Shown: piece by piece, positions 13,704 through 22,652 of the stretch
How the letters are laid out: each line of letters opens with the position of its first letter
Numbering within the stretch: position 1 is the stretch's first letter
Assembly: GCA_005772855.1 (NCBI GenBank)
Contig: SXIK01000038.1
Span: forward strand, 1-39,718
Reading direction: 5' to 3'
DNA length: 39,718 bases
Source: Planctomycetia bacterium
GTDB taxonomy: Bacteria > Planctomycetota > UBA8108 > SXIK01
Program-made: the position numbers and the translations under genes
Notes under the pieces: model-generated
The model's database searches: none
What the model saw: only the letters and a program-made list of their open reading frames with translations
What the model was told of the DNA's origin: nothing

Positions 13704-14076
13704 CAGCCCCCCCGTGCCGCAGGTCCGCGAGTTTGCGCTGTACCCTACGCTGACACCGCTCTGAGGTCGGCTGGAGGCGTGGGTGGTGCGGAGCCTCGTG
13801 CCGGAACCCAACTGCGCGACACAGCACCGCGGCTTGGCCCTTCAAGTTGCGGCAGCAATATAGCCACCCATGGCGTTGGGTGGTCCGATAACCGTCGATT
13901 TTCCTGGCCTCGGGACAAACCGCTTCCTCCCTGCCCGAAGAATATGTTAACATTCTACCGCTAGTAGAAGAGAATTTGTTGGCGCGGAGCAGGACGTCGG
14001 ACAAGAAGGTTCGGACTCCCGATAGAGATCTCTGCGAAGCTGGACTTTTCAAGAAGTGAGCGTGAAGAGGAGCAAC
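13704..14076. other. Intergenic region with a 7-bp inverted repeat
   Basis: About 370 bases without a supported gene. CCACCCA (13864-13870) and TGGGTGG (13877-13883) form a perfect 7-bp hairpin with a 6-nt loop that might end the 11346-13703 transcript, although no T-run follows directly. The AT-richer stretch at about 13940-13980 is the likeliest promoter area for the amidase gene, but no clear consensus is visible. Confidence 0.5.
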
Positions 14077-15273
14077 ATGCCCTATCGTCCTGGCCTCGTG
14101 AGTTTCGCTATTGTGGCCCTGGCAGCCGTCTACGGGTGTCGGTCCGCTGGCTCCAGGGGCAGAAGCTCCGATCGGGAAGTCGCAAGCCACGGCATCGCAG
14201 ACCTGCGCTCCGAGCGGGGCCCGGAGACCCCCGAGGCGCTCTATGCGCGGGCATTGTCTCTGGCAACGACACCGGATGGCAAGGCGCGAGCTTACCTTTC
14301 GCTCGGAAGGGCCCAGCTCAAAGGAGGCCGGGGGCAAGATGCGCTAAAGTCGTTCTACGAGGCCCGGCGACTCGCATACGACGGAGACCTCTCACCCGCA
14401 ATCCATCAAGCTATAGGCGACGCTTACTTCGACCTCGGAGATTACAATTTGGCTCGTCGCTACCTCGGCAAAGCCGCGGTGGAGGGCATCACCAACGATC
14501 GAGATGTCCTCTACGCGAAGCTTGTCATGTGCTGTCGAGCTGTGGAGGACATTGACGCAGCCACCGAATACCGCAAGAGGCTCGGACACCCTATTTCCGA
14601 AGAGGCCCGTTCCATTCTGGCTGCGGAGGCTTGGCTGAAGAATTCCTACAGCTCTCCAGGGGGCTCGCAAGGATACCCCTCGACTCTCCGTCCCGCCCCG
14701 AGGCCGCCAACGACCATCGCCCGCTCCGACGCAGAGGACAAGCTGCGGGTCTATTCCCGCACGAACTGGAGCGCTCGATCGCCTCGCAGCAACATTGAGC
14801 CAATGGGTCGCGTTGAGAAGATCACGGTCCATCATTCTGGCGGTGACAACATCTGGAGCAGTTCAGCCGCCGACACAGCCGACGAGATTCGAAAAATTCA
14901 ACGCTACCATCAGAACGACAAGGGCTGGGCCGACATTGGTTACCACTATGTTGTCGACCGCTCGGGCGCAATCTGGCAGGGCCGAAAGCTCCGCTACCAG
15001 GGCGCGCACGCACGGGGCTCTGCCAATGAGGGCAATGTTGGAATCGTTCTTCTTGGGAACTACATGCACCAGGGCCTCACGCAGGCCCAGAAGGGGAGCC
15101 TCGAGACCTTGATCGAGACACTCTGCGAGCACTTCTCAGTCCCGGCCAATCGAATCTACACCCACGGCGAAATCCTTGATGGCAAAACCGAGTGCCCCGG
15201 CCCGGAGATTTCAAGGTGCGTGAAGGAAATTCGCGAGGACATTCGCCGACGTCTCGTGGCCTACAGGCCCTGA
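14077..15273 (+). CDS. Lipoprotein N-acetylmuramoyl-L-alanine amidase (Amidase_2/PGRP fold) with TPR-like N-domain
   Basis: Predicted to cut the MurNAc-L-Ala bond of peptidoglycan in the periplasm. The 398-residue protein starts with a lipoprotein-type signal ending at Cys21 (AIVALAAVYGC), followed by TPR-like helices (about 55-170: ARAYLSLGRAQLKGGRGQDA, AIGDAYFDLGDYNLARRYL), a Pro-rich linker, and a zinc amidase domain (about 235-395). Zinc-ligand candidates are the His in ITVHHSG, the His in YTHGEI, and the Cys in TECPGPEI; GWADIGYHYVVDRSGAIWQGR (read in two parts) is the family core. The ATG at 14077 has AGAGGAG five bases upstream; a GTG at 14056 is less good. Wall recycling or remodelling is likely. 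Confidence 0.88.
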   Translation: MPYRPGLVSFAIVALAAVYGCRSAGSRGRSSDREVASHGIADLRSERGPETPEALYARALSLATTPDGKARAYLSLGRAQLKGGRGQDALKSFYEARRLAYDGDLSPAIHQAIGDAYFDLGDYNLARRYLGKAAVEGITNDRDVLYAKLVMCCRAVEDIDAATEYRKRLGHPISEEARSILAAEAWLKNSYSSPGGSQGYPSTLRPAPRPPTTIARSDAEDKLRVYSRTNWSARSPRSNIEPMGRVEKITVHHSGGDNIWSSSAADTADEIRKIQRYHQNDKGWADIGYHYVVDRSGAIWQGRKLRYQGAHARGSANEGNVGIVLLGNYMHQGLTQAQKGSLETLIETLCEHFSVPANRIYTHGEILDGKTECPGPEISRCVKEIREDIRRRLVAYRP

Positions 15274-15321
15274 AAGTTTCTGGAGCACCAGCTCACGAAC
15301 GTGGTCCTTGGGCTGCTTGAC

Positions 15322-15699
15322 TCAAGGCGCGCGGGAGGAAATCTGAACCATGCGCTCCCAGCAGTCGGGCTGCCTCGGGTCGTTCTCCGCAGTCTTGTTT
15401 CGTCGCACGAAGCCGCAGTCGACACACTTGTGAATAAGCGCCCAGCCCACCGCAGGCGAACCTTCGAGCGCTGTCGGCTCCATGAGCCCGCCACAGGGCG
15501 AGGCCCGGTCTCCGGGCACAACATCCACGTGGCGCGACCAGAGACATCGGGGGCAGTGGCTGCGAAAACTGCCGTTCTTGAGCGGCAAGACCTCCTCGCC
15601 ACAGACGAGGCAGCGAAAGGCATCGTTGCCAGTGCCGACGAAGTTGCGGCGAGAGACCTCGACATCCTCCCCAGCTCTCCTCCCTCGGCGCTTCGGCAT
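15322..15699 (-). CDS. RNHCP-domain zinc-ribbon protein
   Basis: A 125-residue cytoplasmic protein of the RNHCP family, named for its conserved motif and of unknown function. It shows FRCLVCGEEVLPL (Cys30, Cys33), SHCPRCLWSRHVDVVPGDR (His48, Cys49, Cys52), SPCGGLMEP, and a second pair HKCVDCG (Cys92, Cys95), consistent with two zinc ribbons. The ATG at 15699 is preferred over a TTG at 15741. It converges on the amidase gene (48-nt gap) and diverges from threonine aldolase, whose start is 50 bases away, so the two promoters would overlap. Confidence 0.85.
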   Translation of the reverse strand: MPKRRGRRAGEDVEVSRRNFVGTGNDAFRCLVCGEEVLPLKNGSFRSHCPRCLWSRHVDVVPGDRASPCGGLMEPTALEGSPAVGWALIHKCVDCGFVRRNKTAENDPRQPDCWERMVQISSRAP

Positions 15700-15749
15700 G
15701 GCCAAATTCTCGCTTGGACTAACTCCGGTAACAACCGACAATTCTGCAC

Positions 15750-16805
15750 GTGTTTCCCGTAGACCTCAGAAGCGACACAGTCACCCGACCCGACGCCGCC
15801 ATGTACGAGGCGCTGCGAAGGGCCCCCCTCGGCGATGACGTTTTCGGCGACGACCCCAGCGTCTTGCGGCTCGAGGAAATGGCGGCCGAGATCCTGGGCA
15901 AACAAGCCGCGCTATTCGTCCCGTCCGGCACCATGGGAAACTCGATCGCAATTGCCGTGCAAACGCGGCCTGGCGACGAAGTCTTGACCGAAGCGCAGGC
16001 CCATAGTCTGATCTCCGAGGTCGGGGGCGGCCCGCGCCTCTGGGGAGTCCAGATGACGGCCATTCCGGGCACGGGCGGAATGATTCCGCTGGATAGCATT
16101 CGCCGCGGCGTGAAACCCAACGACATCCACCTCACGCCCGCTCGCCTCCTCATCCTCGAGCAGACGAGCAATCTGGCGGGCGGCCGAATACTGCCTCTCG
16201 ACTACTTACGGAAAGCCTCCAGCCTTGCACGGGAACTGGGCCTACGCTTTCACATCGATGGGGCGCGAATCTTCAACGCCGCGGTAGCGACCGGATTGCC
16301 CGTCCGGGAGTTCGCCGCATGCGCCGACACGGTGATGTTTTGCCTCTCGAAGGGGCTTGGAGCTCCGGTAGGCTCGGTCTTGACGGGAGAGGCGAACGTC
16401 ATCGCGGAGGGCCGACGCGTCCGCAAGCTTCTCGGCGGCGGATTACGCCAGGCCGGGGTGCTCGCCACTTGCGGAATTCATGCACTGGAGCACAACGTCG
16501 AGCGCCTTGAGGAAGACCATGCGAACGCTCGAGGCTTCGCCAGGGCGATCCTCGAGGCCAACCTGCCCGGCGTCGAAGTCGTCCCTCCCGAGACGAACAT
16601 GGTTTACGTGAGAGTCGAGGGCTTTGAGGCCACCGATAACCAGCGGCTACTTCTGAGCCTCAAGGAAGACGGTGTTTGGGCTCTATCGATGCTGGGGCAC
16701 GTCTTGCGGTTCGTTTTTCACAAGGACATCAGTCCCAAAGCTGCTCAAACTGCCCAGGACTTGGTCATTCGCCAGCTTGAAATCAAGTCCAAAGCCCGCA
16801 AATAG
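15750..16805 (+). CDS. ltaE: Low-specificity L-threonine aldolase
   Basis: PLP enzyme splitting L-threonine or L-allo-threonine into glycine and acetaldehyde. The 351-residue protein has the fold-type I aldolase features: DLRSDTVTRP (5-14), GDDVFGDDPSV (28-38), FVPSGTMGN, the active-site His85 in TEAQAH, HIDGARIFNAAV, the PLP lysine Lys201 in CLSKGLGAPVGS, and RKLLGGGLRQAG. Length is normal. The start is a GTG at 15750 with no strong ribosome site. Transcribed away from the RNHCP gene; the ECF sigma gene follows 84 bases after its stop. Confidence 0.94.
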   Translation: MFPVDLRSDTVTRPDAAMYEALRRAPLGDDVFGDDPSVLRLEEMAAEILGKQAALFVPSGTMGNSIAIAVQTRPGDEVLTEAQAHSLISEVGGGPRLWGVQMTAIPGTGGMIPLDSIRRGVKPNDIHLTPARLLILEQTSNLAGGRILPLDYLRKASSLARELGLRFHIDGARIFNAAVATGLPVREFAACADTVMFCLSKGLGAPVGSVLTGEANVIAEGRRVRKLLGGGLRQAGVLATCGIHALEHNVERLEEDHANARGFARAILEANLPGVEVVPPETNMVYVRVEGFEATDNQRLLLSLKEDGVWALSMLGHVLRFVFHKDISPKAAQTAQDLVIRQLEIKSKARK

Positions 16806-16812
16806 CACTTCT

Positions 16813-16889: not shown

Positions 16890-17513
16890 ATGATCGAATC
16901 TGTGGAAAAAGAACCCTCATCTTCCGAACTCGACCTTGTGAATCAAGCGTCCCGTGGCGACCTGAGAGCCTTCGGAAGCCTGGTGGCCAATTATCAGAGG
17001 GCTGTGTTCAACATAGCGCTTTACAAGAGCCGGAACTACTTCGACGCCGAGGACCTCACGCAGGACATCTTCTTTGCCGCATTCAAGGCGCTCTCGACGA
17101 TCAAGGCCCCTGAAAACTTTGGCAGCTGGCTCTTTGGGATCGCCTACAACCGATGCCACAAGTGGTATCGCCGGGAGCGAACGAAGATTCTCAAGATCCA
17201 GGAAATCAGGGATCGTGCTGAGCGCGAGGACCGCTCACGCCATCGCCCTTCGGCCCTCAGCGCGCATCAAGTGCCGGGCTCAAGCGGGAGCGGGGCATCT
17301 GGCCAGTCCAATCCCCACCTCGCCGAGACGATGCGTCGCCTCCCAAAAGACGTGCGTGAGACGCTGACTTTGAAGTATCTGGAGGGCCTCAGCTATCAAG
17401 AGATCGAAGTGCGGCTTGGAATCAACGCTCACCGCATAGACTACTTGATCCGTAAAGGCAAGCAAATGATTCGAGAGCGAATGGGCCTGAACTCCGCTGG
17501 AGGTGCCACGTGA
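16890..17513 (+). CDS. ECF-type RNA polymerase sigma factor
   Basis: A 207-residue alternative sigma factor. Region 2 spans about 15-85 (DLVNQASRGDLRAFGSLVAN, DAEDLTQDIFFAAFKAL, NFGSWLFGIAYNRCHKWYRR), then a Ser/Gly-rich linker, and region 4 covers about 155-205 (LPKDVRETLTLKYLEGLSYQ, GINAHRIDYLIRKGKQMIRE). The ATG at 16890 is chosen because region 2 follows directly and AAAGG lies close before it; a TTG at 16836 is unlikely. Its stop overlaps the GTG of the next gene by four bases, and that gene encodes a membrane anti-sigma factor. With the two cytochromes downstream it may form one operon; target genes unknown. Confidence 0.92.
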   Translation: MIESVEKEPSSSELDLVNQASRGDLRAFGSLVANYQRAVFNIALYKSRNYFDAEDLTQDIFFAAFKALSTIKAPENFGSWLFGIAYNRCHKWYRRERTKILKIQEIRDRAEREDRSRHRPSALSAHQVPGSSGSGASGQSNPHLAETMRRLPKDVRETLTLKYLEGLSYQEIEVRLGINAHRIDYLIRKGKQMIRERMGLNSAGGAT

Positions 17514-18343
17514 GCAATCCCCACGAATCCCATGCCAATGGCCGTGAGGCCTCTCGGCCCGATTGTCACTGGGTATCTGAAGACCTTCATGCCTTCACCG
17601 AGGGAGAATCGTCTCCACTCGTCGAGAAGCTGATTCGAGAGCACCTGGCTGATTGCGCCGGGTGTCGAGCGCGTGAGGAAGAGCTGAAGCTGGAGCGGCT
17701 ATGGATTATCGAGGCCGCGATCGCGGCTCCGGCGCTACCAAGCCATTTCGTGGAGAAGATCCTGCGACGCATCAAGAGGGCAGAGACCGCGCGCCACTCC
17801 CACCGCCGAGCGATTTTGCTGCGAGTCTCGGCCGTCGCGGCTGCCGTGCTCGTGATCGCAACCCTCCTTGTGTCGAGGTTTGAGCCAGGGCTTGACTCAA
17901 AACCAGGGGCTCCCGAAACGGATGTTGGAACAAGCAGAGTCGCCCTGGCTCCTAATCCGCCAGCCCACAATCTTCGAATCGCACCGGCGCCCGCCTCGCC
18001 TGTGGCTGACGAATTGCTACGCGTCGTCGCCCAGCGCACCATCCCCCCTGAGTCGGCGCAAGTCCCGCAACTCAACGAGTCCGTCTTCCCGTCCAGCCCC
18101 CCGAGCTTTGGTCACGTGGCAGGCATGGCTCGAAGACTCGATCCCAGGGCAAGACGTCACGAAGCGTCCCTGGGCGACGACCCGTGCAAACCCGATCCCA
18201 ACAAGGATGGCAAGACCGACATCATTGACGTCGCCTACTCTTGCCAGCTCCTTCTTACAGGCCAGCCGCCAAACCCGCTCGAAGTCCCCAACGTGAAGGC
18301 TCAAGAATCGGCCGATTGCGATGAGTCGTGTTTCCGCGCCTGA
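17510..18343 (+). CDS. Membrane anti-sigma factor with zinc-binding motif and an external dockerin-type EF-hand loop
   Basis: A 277-residue single-pass anti-sigma factor, translationally coupled to the sigma gene (GTGA overlap). The cytoplasmic part carries the ZAS-type zinc motif His45-x3-Cys49-x2-Cys52 (EHLADCAGC). A membrane helix lies at about 102-122, then a Pro/Ala-rich periplasmic linker. Near the C-terminus, DPNKDGKTDIID (229-240) has EF-hand ligand spacing at positions 1, 3, 5, 7, 9 and 12 and is followed by VAYSCQLLLTGQPPN, which looks like half a dockerin repeat pair. Four Cys (226, 245, 270, 274) lie in this outer part. It could sense calcium, redox state or a protein partner outside the membrane; that is inference. 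Confidence 0.88.
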   Translation: MSNPHESHANGREASRPDCHWVSEDLHAFTEGESSPLVEKLIREHLADCAGCRAREEELKLERLWIIEAAIAAPALPSHFVEKILRRIKRAETARHSHRRAILLRVSAVAAAVLVIATLLVSRFEPGLDSKPGAPETDVGTSRVALAPNPPAHNLRIAPAPASPVADELLRVVAQRTIPPESAQVPQLNESVFPSSPPSFGHVAGMARRLDPRARRHEASLGDDPCKPDPNKDGKTDIIDVAYSCQLLLTGQPPNPLEVPNVKAQESADCDESCFRA

Positions 18344-18394: not shown

Positions 18395-19834
18395 ATGAAA
18401 AAAAGTTTGGCGTTTCCCCGAACGTCGTCTGTCCTGGCCGCCATGCTGTTGGTTGCACCCGCTCTACCTGGCCTCGGCGTGCAGCAGCCTCCAGCCGGGG
18501 AGGCCCCTGCTTACGAGCAGCAGGTCAACCTCGTCTACACCGTCAACAACCTGGGTTACACCGAGACTTGTGGCTGACCGAAGAAAAAAATAAAACTGGG
18601 CAGTTTGCCCAGACGCGCAACTTATCTCAACCAAGTGCGAGGAGAGGGACACCCGGTGATTCTGGTCGACGCCGGCGACTGCTTCTTTTCGACCCCCACC
18701 AAGAAGGCTCCCACCAAGGCGGAGGAAATTCAAGAGTTGCGCAAGGGCCGAACGGTCCTGAACGCTTACAACTTCATGGGGTACCAGGCCCTTGGCATAG
18801 GGCCCGCCGATTTGCAGCTTGGGATCAGCACACTGAAGGACTTCGAGAGGGAGGCAAATTTTCCGTTTCTGTGCGCCAACCTTGTCGACAAGGAGACGAA
18901 GAACCCCATCTTCAAGCCCTATCTGATCGTCGAGGCCGGGGGGATCAAATTCGGGCTCTACTCCGTCATGATGGTGCTCCTCAACGAAACCTATGCGAAC
19001 CGAGTCCTCGTCAATGCCGAGCTGCTCGATCCCGAAAAGGTGAGTCGAGATCTCGCGCTGGAGCTCAGCAAATCATGCGATGTCGTCATCGCACTGTCGC
19101 ACTTGAACGTCGACACGAACGAAAAGCTTCTCGACTCAAACCCGGGCATCGACGCACTCATCGATCCTCTCTCAAGGTCTGGCTCGAAGAACATTTGGAT
19201 CGCAGAGAACGAGTACCTGGTATTGCGAAATGGCACTCCCGTGCTGCGGATCGACGGTCAGGGCTCCCGGGTCGGCGTCTTCGAGATGTACTTCAAGAAG
19301 GGCGAGAAAAAATTTGCTGACTACCGCGTGGTCGACGGGGCGCTCGAGCCGCACATCATGCGACACCCCGAAATGACACAGCTCGTCGAGGAGTTCGAAC
19401 GGGGACGGTTGCAACCCTTCCCGATCAAGTTCGACACGCGAAAGCCACGGATTTTCGAGGATTTCATGGGCCAGGAAGGCTGCGCTTCCTGCCACGCAGA
19501 GCAAGCCGCATTCTGGAAAGGAACAAAGCACGCCAACACCTTCGCCACTCTCGAGAAGACCGGTGACCAGGCGCGCACGGACTGCGTCGGCTGCCACACA
19601 CTCGGCTACGGCGTCGGGTATGCGTCCGCGCAACTCGTTGGGAAGTTCAAGGAAGTTCAGTGCGAGAGCTGCCACACAAGCAAGCCGGACCACGCCTCCA
19701 ACCCCAAGAGCGTCAGGCTCGGCGTGGTGCAGGAAGAGACTTGTTGGGGTTGCCATAACCCCGAGATCACAAAAAAGCAGTTTCAATACTCGGACGCCAT
19801 GATGAAGGCGTCCTGTCCAAAAATTAAGAAGTAG
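18395..19834 (+). CDS. Predicted selenoprotein: tetraheme cytochrome c554-like protein with 5'-nucleotidase-like N-domain (TGA codon 61 = Sec)
   Basis: The frame from ATG 18395 meets one TGA (18575-18577) and then stays open in the same frame to 19834. Read through, it gives 479 residues: signal peptide (1-30), a metallophosphoesterase/5'-nucleotidase-like domain (about 44-315), and a cytochrome c554-like domain with four heme sites (CASCH, CVGCH, CESCH, CWGCH). The neighbouring paralog at 19849 aligns without gaps across the TGA: GYTETCG-TGA-PKKK against GYIDVCGCKHKE. The TGA therefore takes the place of a cysteine, giving a Cys-Gly-Sec motif. The phosphoesterase motifs are degenerate (GPADL where GNHE is expected), so the domain may be non-hydrolytic. 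Exported, probably a periplasmic redox protein. The alternative is a pseudogene with one nonsense mutation, which the hairpin at 18596 and the intact downstream frame argue against. Confidence 0.8.
18575..18612 (+). promoter_or_regulatory. Candidate bacterial SECIS element at the in-frame TGA
   Basis: CTGGGCA (18596-18602) and TGCCCAG (18606-18612) form a perfect 7-bp stem closed by a GTT loop. The loop begins 26 bases after the TGA, inside the spacing known for bacterial SECIS elements (roughly 16-37), and its first base is G, as the family requires. The codons here (AAA AAA ATA AAA, AGT TTG, AGA) are unlike the GC-rich codons around them, suggesting constraint on RNA rather than protein. 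The Cys paralog has no such hairpin at the same place. SelB would bind this loop. Confidence 0.7.
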
Positions 19835-19848
19835 GAAAGAGTTTCCCA

Positions 19849-21339
19849 ATGTCGCGGAGAACCGTTTGCACATTATGCTTTTCTCTGGCAGCCACTGTTG
19901 CCACTTGCAGCGTCGGCCAGACGGGTGGGCCAGACAATCCGAAGAAATTCACGCTGGTCTACAATGTGAACAACGCTGGCTACATCGACGTCTGCGGATG
20001 CAAGCACAAGGAGGTGCGCCAGGGGAGCATCACTCGGCGGGCGAGCTTCCTCAAGCAACTGAAGGCCACCGGGCGTGACTTGCTGATCCTCGACGGCGGG
20101 AGTTCGCTCTTCGCGCTCGACGACCGCCTGAAGGACGCGGAACGCACCGAAGCCATTCGCAAGGCCAAGCTGATTGTCGAGGCCTACAACCGAATGGATT
20201 ACAAGGCCATGGCCATCGGCCCCTTCGACCTGGCTGGCGGCCTCGATACCCTCCAGACCCTCCAGGCAAGAGCCAAGTTCGAGTTCCTTTCCGCGAATAT
20301 GGTCCACAAGGGAACCCGGCAACTCTATTTCAAACCGCACACAGTGATCGAGGTCGCAGGGGTGCGTGTGGGCGTCATCGGCCTCACGCTCAACACCATG
20401 GGCTCCGCCTTCCTGGCAAAGGTGGCCCCGGACCTCGAGGTGACCGATCCCATCGAAGCAGCCAGGGCCTCGATGAACGACTTGAAGGGCAAGACAGATT
20501 TGCTGATCGCGCTCTCCCACATGAAGGAGGAGGCCACCTTCGAGCTGGCCAAAAAATTGAGCGATCTCCAGATCGTGGTGGATCCGTATATCCAGTACGG
20601 AAACCATCACACCTGGATTAAAGATGATGAGTGGGTCAGCTTCAAGGATCACACCCTGCTCCTGCGAAGCGACGGCCAGGGAGCCCGCATGGGCGTCGTC
20701 GACATCACCCTTCGTGAGTCGCAGAAGCCGTTGGTGTTGGAGGCCCGCGTGAGTGAGTTGGAGGATTCCGTTGCGGCGAAGTCAGCCACGGCAGAGGAAA
20801 AGGCGGAGTTGGAGAAATCTCGCGGAAAAAACCCCTTCAAGTTCGAACGAATCAGCCTCGAGCCCCACCACAGGTCGGACCCAGACATGGACCAGCTCGT
20901 TGAGGAATGGAAAAAAAACATCGATCCGCAGAAGGTGGCGCACCTCGAGAGCGCTCTGCCCCGGAAAAACGAATATCTGACGGTCGAAAAGTGCAAGACT
21001 TGCCACACGAAACAATACGAGAACTGGAAGACCACGAAGCACTCGCACGCCATGGCATCTCTCGCCGAGACGGGCGATCAGCATCGCTACGACTGCGTCG
21101 GTTGCCATTCACTTGGCTACGGGGAAGCCTTTCTCGACACATCAAGAGTGGGATCCTTCGCCGATGTCCAGTGCGAGTCCTGCCACGGCACCAACGTCAA
21201 GCATGCGGACGACCCAAAACAGTTCCAGTTCTCAAAGGTCCAGCGAAGCGACTGCATTGTCTGCCACAACAAGGAGCAGACCCGCAACGAGTTCAATTAC
21301 GCGACAGCCAAGCCGAAGGTCCAGTGCCCGAAGTCTTGA
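19849..21339 (+). CDS. Cys paralog: tetraheme cytochrome c554-like protein with 5'-nucleotidase-like N-domain
   Basis: A 496-residue exported protein, tandem paralog of the predicted selenoprotein. It has a signal peptide (about 1-23), the N-terminal motif VNNAGYIDVCGC (Cys49, Cys51), and a metallophosphoesterase-like domain whose metal motifs are lost: LDGGSSLF for the usual GD motif and GPFDLAGG for GNHE. The C-terminal cytochrome c554-like domain has four CxxCH sites (CKTCH, CVGCH, CESCH, CIVCH). AGGAAAGAG precedes the ATG, and the gene starts 14 bases after the selenoprotein stop, so the two are surely co-transcribed. A periplasmic electron-transfer role is likely; substrate unknown. Confidence 0.85.
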   Translation: MSRRTVCTLCFSLAATVATCSVGQTGGPDNPKKFTLVYNVNNAGYIDVCGCKHKEVRQGSITRRASFLKQLKATGRDLLILDGGSSLFALDDRLKDAERTEAIRKAKLIVEAYNRMDYKAMAIGPFDLAGGLDTLQTLQARAKFEFLSANMVHKGTRQLYFKPHTVIEVAGVRVGVIGLTLNTMGSAFLAKVAPDLEVTDPIEAARASMNDLKGKTDLLIALSHMKEEATFELAKKLSDLQIVVDPYIQYGNHHTWIKDDEWVSFKDHTLLLRSDGQGARMGVVDITLRESQKPLVLEARVSELEDSVAAKSATAEEKAELEKSRGKNPFKFERISLEPHHRSDPDMDQLVEEWKKNIDPQKVAHLESALPRKNEYLTVEKCKTCHTKQYENWKTTKHSHAMASLAETGDQHRYDCVGCHSLGYGEAFLDTSRVGSFADVQCESCHGTNVKHADDPKQFQFSKVQRSDCIVCHNKEQTRNEFNYATAKPKVQCPKS

Positions 21340-21563: not shown

Positions 21564-22652
21564 GTGGACCCATTGCCAAGACATTATTGTAGCCTCGGAG
21601 CAGGTCCGCCCATTGTCGTGGTGGGCGGCGGTGTGATCGGGCTTGCGATCGCCCGGGAGCTTGCCCGAGAGGGTTGGGCTGTCACCGTGGTAGAACGTGG
21701 TCAGCCGGGCGCCGAGGCTTCACGCGCAGCAGCTGGCATGATCGCGCCCCGGGTTGAATTCAAGCACGGGAGTTGGCTCTGGAACGCTGGGCTCGAGTCA
21801 AGGCGACTCTATCCACGCTTCGCCGCGGAGCTTGAGGACGAAACGGGCATATCGATCGACCTGCGCTTGAGCGGGCTTCTCGTGCCCATCTTTTCCGAGG
21901 AGGACGAGACCAGGTACGAGCCTTTTGACTCGGATCGCCTGAGCGCCCGTGAGGCACGTGAGCTGGAGCCCTCACTTACGGAGAGCCTCCGTGGCGCTCT
22001 TCTATATCCGGAGGACGGCAGCGTGGACAATCGAGCGCTCATCGAGGCGCTCTTGGCTTCTCTTCAGGCTCGCAGGGTAAGACTGCTCACGAACACGGCG
22101 GCACTCGAGGTGCTCGTTGATTCCGATAGAGTTTGCGGAGTCAGCACGAGTCGAGGCGTGATCGAGGCCTGCGCCGTCGTCAACTCGGCCGGCGCCTGGG
22201 CCGGAGATTTGAAAGTGCCCGGCATTGACCTGAAAATGAGGCCCGTCAAGGGTCACATGATCTCGGTTCAGACGAAGGCGCTCAGAGGCCGACCGCTCCC
22301 GGTAAGAGTACTTTATTCGCACACCAGTTACCTCGTCCCACGTGGCGATGGACGTGTCGTCATCGGCACCACCGTGGAAGACAAGGGTTTTGACAAGACC
22401 GTGGAAACCGGGCAAATTGCCCACCTTATCGAAAGAGCCCGCCAAGTCTGGCCCGACGTCGTCCAGACCCAGTTTGTGGAAGCCTGGACAGGGCTTCGTC
22501 CTCTGGGACCCGAAATTGAGCCGCGGATCGGGGCCGCGGGCCCGATGGGCTATGTAGTTGCCATCGGTCACTATCGAAACGGGATCCTCCTGAGTCCACT
22601 CACGGCGCTGCGGGTCGCGGACGCGCTCTCGGGCAGCCTTGCGCGGCCCTGA
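21564..22652 (+). CDS. thiO: Glycine oxidase / thiamine-pathway FAD oxidoreductase ThiO
   Basis: A 362-residue FAD-dependent amine oxidase (DAO family), most like ThiO, which oxidises glycine to the imine used in thiazole synthesis. Visible features are the dinucleotide-binding motif VVVGGGVIGLAIARELAREG (about 18-37), EASRAAAGMIAP, the FAD-interacting VNSAGAWAGDL, the substrate-side RPVKGHM, WTGLRPLGPEIEPRIG, and GHYRNGILLSP at the C-terminus. The GTG at 21564 is preceded by AAGGTG seven bases upstream. No thiG or thiS is next to it. Other DAO-family oxidases cannot be fully excluded. Confidence 0.85.
   Translation: MDPLPRHYCSLGAGPPIVVVGGGVIGLAIARELAREGWAVTVVERGQPGAEASRAAAGMIAPRVEFKHGSWLWNAGLESRRLYPRFAAELEDETGISIDLRLSGLLVPIFSEEDETRYEPFDSDRLSAREARELEPSLTESLRGALLYPEDGSVDNRALIEALLASLQARRVRLLTNTAALEVLVDSDRVCGVSTSRGVIEACAVVNSAGAWAGDLKVPGIDLKMRPVKGHMISVQTKALRGRPLPVRVLYSHTSYLVPRGDGRVVIGTTVEDKGFDKTVETGQIAHLIERARQVWPDVVQTQFVEAWTGLRPLGPEIEPRIGAAGPMGYVVAIGHYRNGILLSPLTALRVADALSGSLARP

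Follow-up and report, generated by a model that had tools for sequence, protein, structure and literature searches.

The window, i.e. the whole analysed stretch of 39,718 nucleotides from a Planctomycetia bacterium (contig SXIK01000038.1), carries two adjacent genes for UshA-like proteins with four CxxCH heme motifs each, the first of which contains an in-frame TGA, and both lie downstream of genes for a sigma factor and an anti-sigma factor. Their coordinates, and those of the smaller features, are as follows.

16890..17513, + strand: ECF sigma factor (Sigma70_r2 and r4_2; alternative start TTG 16836), conserved upstream of the pair
17510..18343, + strand: zf-HC2 anti-sigma factor (PF13490), probably membrane-spanning, at a position conserved in other genomes
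18395..19834, + strand: predicted Sec-containing UshA-like tetraheme cytochrome gene, 479 residues with Sec61
18395..18499, + strand: probable export signal (MKKSLAF...VLAAMLLVAPALPG) and linker, from reading of the sequence
18500..19417, + strand: 5'-nucleotidase-like (calcineurin-type) domain with a degenerate metal site (fold model, PDB matches, UshA alignment)
18575..18577, + strand: Sec-TGA codon, residue 61, in the motif Cys59-Gly60-Sec61 (translation, orthologue alignment)
18596..18612, + strand: SECIS-like stem-loop CUGGGCA-GUU-UGCCCAG (folding, codon constraint, bSECIS model of PMC13188914)
19481..19756, + strand: cytochrome c554-like domain with four CxxCH (PF13435, E 5.8e-12; PDB profile match 1bvb)
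19481-19495, 19583-19597, 19661-19675 and 19742-19756, + strand: the individual CxxCH heme motifs of the Sec gene
19849..21339, + strand: tandem Cys paralogue, CGC at residues 49-51, four CxxCH (domain profiles, alignment, tree)

Translation of the frame 18395-19834 gives 480 codons, the sole internal stop being the TGA at codon 61, behind which 418 sense codons run to a terminal TAG; all four CxxCH are found downstream of the TGA. This is what a previous sequence-only reading had described, together with the prediction that a gene caller would split the gene at the TGA, and an ORF is indeed called at 18605-19834. When the window was scanned mechanically for further TGAs with coding-like sequence on either side, only weak candidates emerged, mostly antisense and none of them convincing.

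Orthologues of the Sec gene were analysed in a sample of 29 genomes from the planctomycete class of the source genome. Exactly one TGA per orthologue was found in 26 of these and, wherever the site was read, at the same codon and in the context CG-TGA-P. As for the remaining three genomes, one has a Cys copy only and two have no close copy. Since the orthologues of 25 other class genomes, with 35-68% identity, also carry a single TGA, its presence in frame is not due to chance. The sequence is conserved on both sides of the TGA where orthologues were aligned, with G54, C59-G60-[U/C]61, G69-S70, R73-R74 and D92 among the invariant positions. Three heme motifs are likewise invariant; the remaining one, the fourth, is nearly so, since some rows end at the locus edge. 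The gene thus combines an in-frame UGA, a conserved frame and homologues with Cys at the site, as a selenoprotein gene should.

Concerning the decoding machinery, the source assembly (Planctomycetota, 5.03 Mb, 96% complete) contains the complete set of a selenoprotein host: a tRNA-Sec (selC) with 66.4 bits, above the Rfam cut-off, selB (353 bits), selA (545 bits) and selD (347 bits). The selD gene (L065 / L054, G000:C36:17289-18212) has its own in-frame TGA, in the active-site segment LTQHASCAG-U-ASKL (...CAGU...), so the genome possesses a second, textbook selenoprotein. Among the 29 class genomes, tRNA-Sec reaches at least 62 bits in 26 and selB exceeds its cut-off in 25, those lacking a match being mainly less complete or fragmented assemblies. 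The sequence-only reading had proposed a selenoprotein with a Sec/Cys exchange at CG[U/C] and had suggested looking for these four genes; it had also held that missing selB and tRNA-Sec, or a decayed downstream frame, would speak against it. All four genes were found, the TGA codon and the frame behind it are conserved, and the alignments of orthologues and paralogues place Cys opposite Sec. From these sequence data, the gene almost certainly encodes a true selenoprotein.

The stem-loop starts 21 nt past the T of the TGA and has a 7-bp stem, a GUU loop and an MFE of -11.5. The bSECIS model of PMC13188914 calls for a 3-nt loop beginning with G then U, a given spacing and an energy below -7.5 kcal/mol, and the stem-loop, with a spacing of 25 nt from the UGA, fits it. 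This model discriminates poorly, since eight of the ten Cys homologues from beyond the class fall below -7.5 kcal/mol as well, and the energy-based test alone was therefore discarded as evidence; given this looseness, codon constraint was tested in its place. The Ser codon of the loop is AGT in all 21 distinct Sec copies and the Gly codon is GGC in 20 of them, while 24 Cys copies vary at the same sites among five Ser codons and the four Gly codons. Likewise, synonymous recodings as stable as the native sequence amount to 5.9% for the Sec copies vs. 33% for the Cys copies. Codon bias and recoding stability together show a constraint beyond the protein sequence, and the stem-loop probably acts as a SECIS. 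One G-C pair of the stem is replaced by C-G in eight sequences, both bases being at third codon positions; this compensatory change may correspond to a single event in one family.

The Cys paralogue starts 14 bp after the stop of the Sec gene. As had been noticed from the sequence alone, the two align without gaps on both sides of the site (Sec gene LVYTVNNLGYTETCG[TGA]PKKKIKLGSLPRRATYL; Cys paralogue TLVYNVNNAGYIDVCGCKHKEVRQGSITRRASFL), the paralogue having a TGC codon opposite the TGA, and Cys is kept there in every class paralogue read. In a tree of 87 rows, comprising class members and relatives, the class Sec copies form one group (97/81), the class Cys copies another (99/95), and both together a single one (100/100). 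Judging from this grouping, the two sets of copies derive from one duplication, older than the radiation of the class, with the Sec and Cys states retained since. The genes stand side by side on the same strand, Sec first, in 23 of the 26 TGA-bearing class genomes; among the other three, one contig stops too soon for a decision, and in one genus no Cys copy is adjacent to the Sec copy.

In Candidatus Eisenbacteria, too, Sec and Cys genes of this family stand in tandem (loci L110, L123 and L139, with the reverse order in L124), which suggests that the pairing matters, and locus L117 has two Sec copies in tandem. Besides, L056 (G224:C11) and L057 (G281:C144) display a second, divergent UshA-like tetraheme gene (ca. 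28% identity, with extra N-terminal domains) containing one in-frame TGA at the equivalent site (LEPCG-U-ISHPLGGLARR / MSNPLGGLARR), so that these genomes have two Sec versions of the family.

The ECF sigma factor and zf-HC2 anti-sigma factor genes are located directly upstream of the pair in all seven loci with enough flank (the window, G314, G133, G015, G202, G043 and G083), which represent three families, the anti-sigma call being based in some of them on position and homology without a separate Pfam match. In the f5 genus, the two genes are not upstream. From its sequence, the anti-sigma factor of the window (17510-18343) has one membrane helix and, at its C-terminus, a calcium-loop motif of dockerin/EF-like type (DPNKDGKTDIIDVAYSC), a possible extracytoplasmic sensor. 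Further upstream (14056-16806), Amidase_2, RNHCP and threonine-aldolase-like genes keep their position in several genomes; they were nevertheless discarded as partners, no functional link being evident. Downstream, at 21564-22652, lies a ThiO-like glycine oxidase gene (276.9 bits, cut-off 250.8), homologues of which also follow the pair in G314 and G133. In other phyla, large multiheme cytochromes, mostly with 9 or 16 CxxCH, occur near the family gene in 9 of 51 loci (e.g. L101, L106, L108 and L113), and a protein that we read as DsbA-like is encoded upstream in three of the 51.

Both window proteins exceed the cut-off (275 bits) of NCBIfam NF041198, the 'UshA-like (seleno)protein' family (UshA_like_PCGU), with 284.4 and 291.8 bits, and very probably belong to it. 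The pass is marginal: class Sec copies score 229.6, 264, 270 and 284 bits, several thus staying under 275, and by these scores they are the divergent edge of the family. Positions 10-270 of the model correspond to the nucleotidase-like part and 345-519 to the heme part; the heme-containing C-terminal half of the model is matched (profile 378-518), and C59-G60-U61 has the C-x-U / C-x-C form of the family motif. A 'COG0737, UshA-like, CxU' selenoprotein family with 76 sequences appears in the GOS survey of 2008 (PMC2398784), and the UshA-like family is again listed in reviews of 2022 (PMC9312934) and 2026 (PMC13188914); where these three papers list the family, no function is given. The profile match and these listings make the Sec gene a member of a known, uncharacterised family, and the earlier impression that such an architecture had not been described has to be abandoned. 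What is added here is the class-old duplication, the sigma/anti-sigma neighbourhood and the loss of nucleotidase residues.

A contig scan with a single sequence found nothing, and an alignment-based scan provided 79 loci. The phyla in which the latter detected relatives with four CxxCH and CGU or CGC include Thermodesulfobacteriota, Acidobacteriota, Candidatus Eiseniibacteriota, Myxococcota and Nitrospirota. Beyond the class, 56 family members were compared, with TGA at the site in 43 and Cys in 13. The class shares with NF041198 the CG[U/C] motif, the UshA-like N-terminal domain and the C-terminal heme domain, and differs from it by its fixed Sec/Cys tandem pair, by KIKLGSLxRR instead of the GGLARR loop and, in the source genome's own order, by Thr instead of Pro before CGU. 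Two other selenoprotein families are similar in part only. NF049981 (UshA-like selenoprotein family 2, CxxU) has the same type of scaffold, but its motif spacing is different, its model has 262 vs. 519 positions and the score is 41.4 bits for a cut-off of 140. NF040886 (ExtKL), given in PMC13188914 as a multiheme c-type cytochrome (seleno)protein, does not match the Sec protein and gives 18.4 bits with the Cys paralogue, for a cut-off of 250.

As for the domains, an AlphaFold2 model is confident for the N-terminal domain and has pLDDT < 50 for the heme domain. The best PDB matches of the former are 5'-nucleotidases, E. coli UshA among the proteins of like fold (Foldseek E 1e-23 to 1e-24), and the latter shares its CxxCH pattern with Nitrosomonas cytochrome c554 (1bvb, PF13435), although only ca. 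70-85 residues match and the domain is fused here to another one. The two domain likenesses proposed by the sequence-only reading are thereby confirmed. Residues of the nucleotidase site were compared in an alignment of E. coli UshA with 86 family members, 30 of them from the class (17 Sec and 13 Cys copies). We take the dinuclear metal ligands of UshA to be D41, H43, D84, N116, H217, H252 and Q254, and its catalytic dyad to be H117/D120; the motifs were checked in the aligned UshA sequence. The window protein has N, L, D, P, H, L and R at the seven ligand positions and A and Q at the dyad, and therefore lacks the residue set of a 5'-nucleotidase. Within the class, the Asp41 position is occupied by Asn, His or Ser. 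This loss makes a phosphoesterase role unlikely, so '5'-nucleotidase-like' is correct for the fold and misleading for the function. Compared with E. coli UshA, hemes and CGU have been added. Some relatives retain part of the ligands (Asp41, Asp84, His217, His252), and residual metal binding is consequently possible.

The best overall explanation, to which we assign a probability of about 0.8 on the sequence evidence, is an NF041198 selenoprotein with a heme-coupled redox centre, a Cys counterpart and ECF control. UGA61 would be read by SelB with Sec-tRNA-Sec, aided by the downstream stem-loop, as the sequence, the codon constraint and the machinery suggest. The product would be exported and receive four c-type hemes, in line with its signal-like N-terminus, its four CxxCH and the presence of the cytochrome assembly family PF01578 in the source genome. 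Its N-terminal domain would be a 5'-nucleotidase fold with a decayed metal and catalytic site, with the invariant Cys-Gly-Sec in the loop that follows strand one. The protein would act in the periplasm through a Cys-Gly-Sec redox centre linked to its four hemes, and would be no nucleotidase. That it is a heme-coupled redox enzyme appears likely. The most probable action is that of a two-electron selenol/thiol (selenenylsulfide) centre passing electrons to or from the tetraheme domain; candidate substrates are small molecules of sulfur, selenium or peroxide type, oxidised or reduced, or a protein disulfide, and the invariant R73-R74 pair perhaps binds an anion. The Cys paralogue, probably made from the same transcript, would be a partner or a lower-reactivity counterpart, and the ECF sigma and anti-sigma factors encoded next to the two genes, on their upstream side, probably control both of them. 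A true working partnership of the two copies can be proposed only tentatively. Just as speculative is the idea that the Sec and Cys copies depend on each other as the two components, perhaps the two subunits of a heterodimer, of an electron-transfer system in the periplasm with its own ECF sigma factor, in which a dead 5'-nucleotidase has become a heme-coupled selenol/thiol redox enzyme; no description of such chemistry was found for any selenoprotein.

Three other explanations were weighed against this redox selenoprotein. The protein could be a selenoprotein whose nucleotidase-like domain binds one metal, Sec being a metal ligand or nucleophile in a SoxB-like hydrolase without redox centre: SoxB is a detectable relative, Asp84 (14/17) and His217 (15/17) are mostly retained in the Sec copies, and several members outside the class retain Asp41/His252. 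Yet His43 and Asp120 are found in none of the 30 class members; among the 13 Cys copies, Asp84 is missing throughout and Asn116 is retained in only three; and the feature that is conserved, CG[U/C] with four hemes, includes hemes that a hydrolase would not need; we regard this explanation as improbable. The TGA could also be a real stop, in a pseudogene or in a gene of two parts that restarts downstream, e.g. at TTG 18605 where the called ORF begins, or it could result from a sequencing error; this is very improbable and was rejected, as a single TGA, with conserved flanks where aligned, is kept in 26 genomes from independent, divergent assemblies, and a product restarted downstream would lack the export signal required for c-type heme attachment, which takes place outside the cytoplasm. 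A genome-wide reassignment of TGA to Trp or Gly without any Sec, in favour of which no observation was found, was dismissed as extremely improbable, since TGA ends the neighbouring anti-sigma gene and is thus a stop elsewhere in the genome, all paralogues and distant homologues whose site was read have Cys, and neither Trp nor Gly, at the aligned position, and the Sec machinery is complete.

For annotation, this means that a stop-to-stop gene call deprives the Sec gene of its export signal and active site in all class genomes that possess it. As a whole, a family that has stood on selenoprotein lists since 2008 without a function, under a misleading name, is argued here to consist of redox enzymes wired to hemes, not of nucleotidases, and the Sec and Cys versions of one protein, kept adjacent across the class, provide a natural experiment on what Sec adds over Cys.
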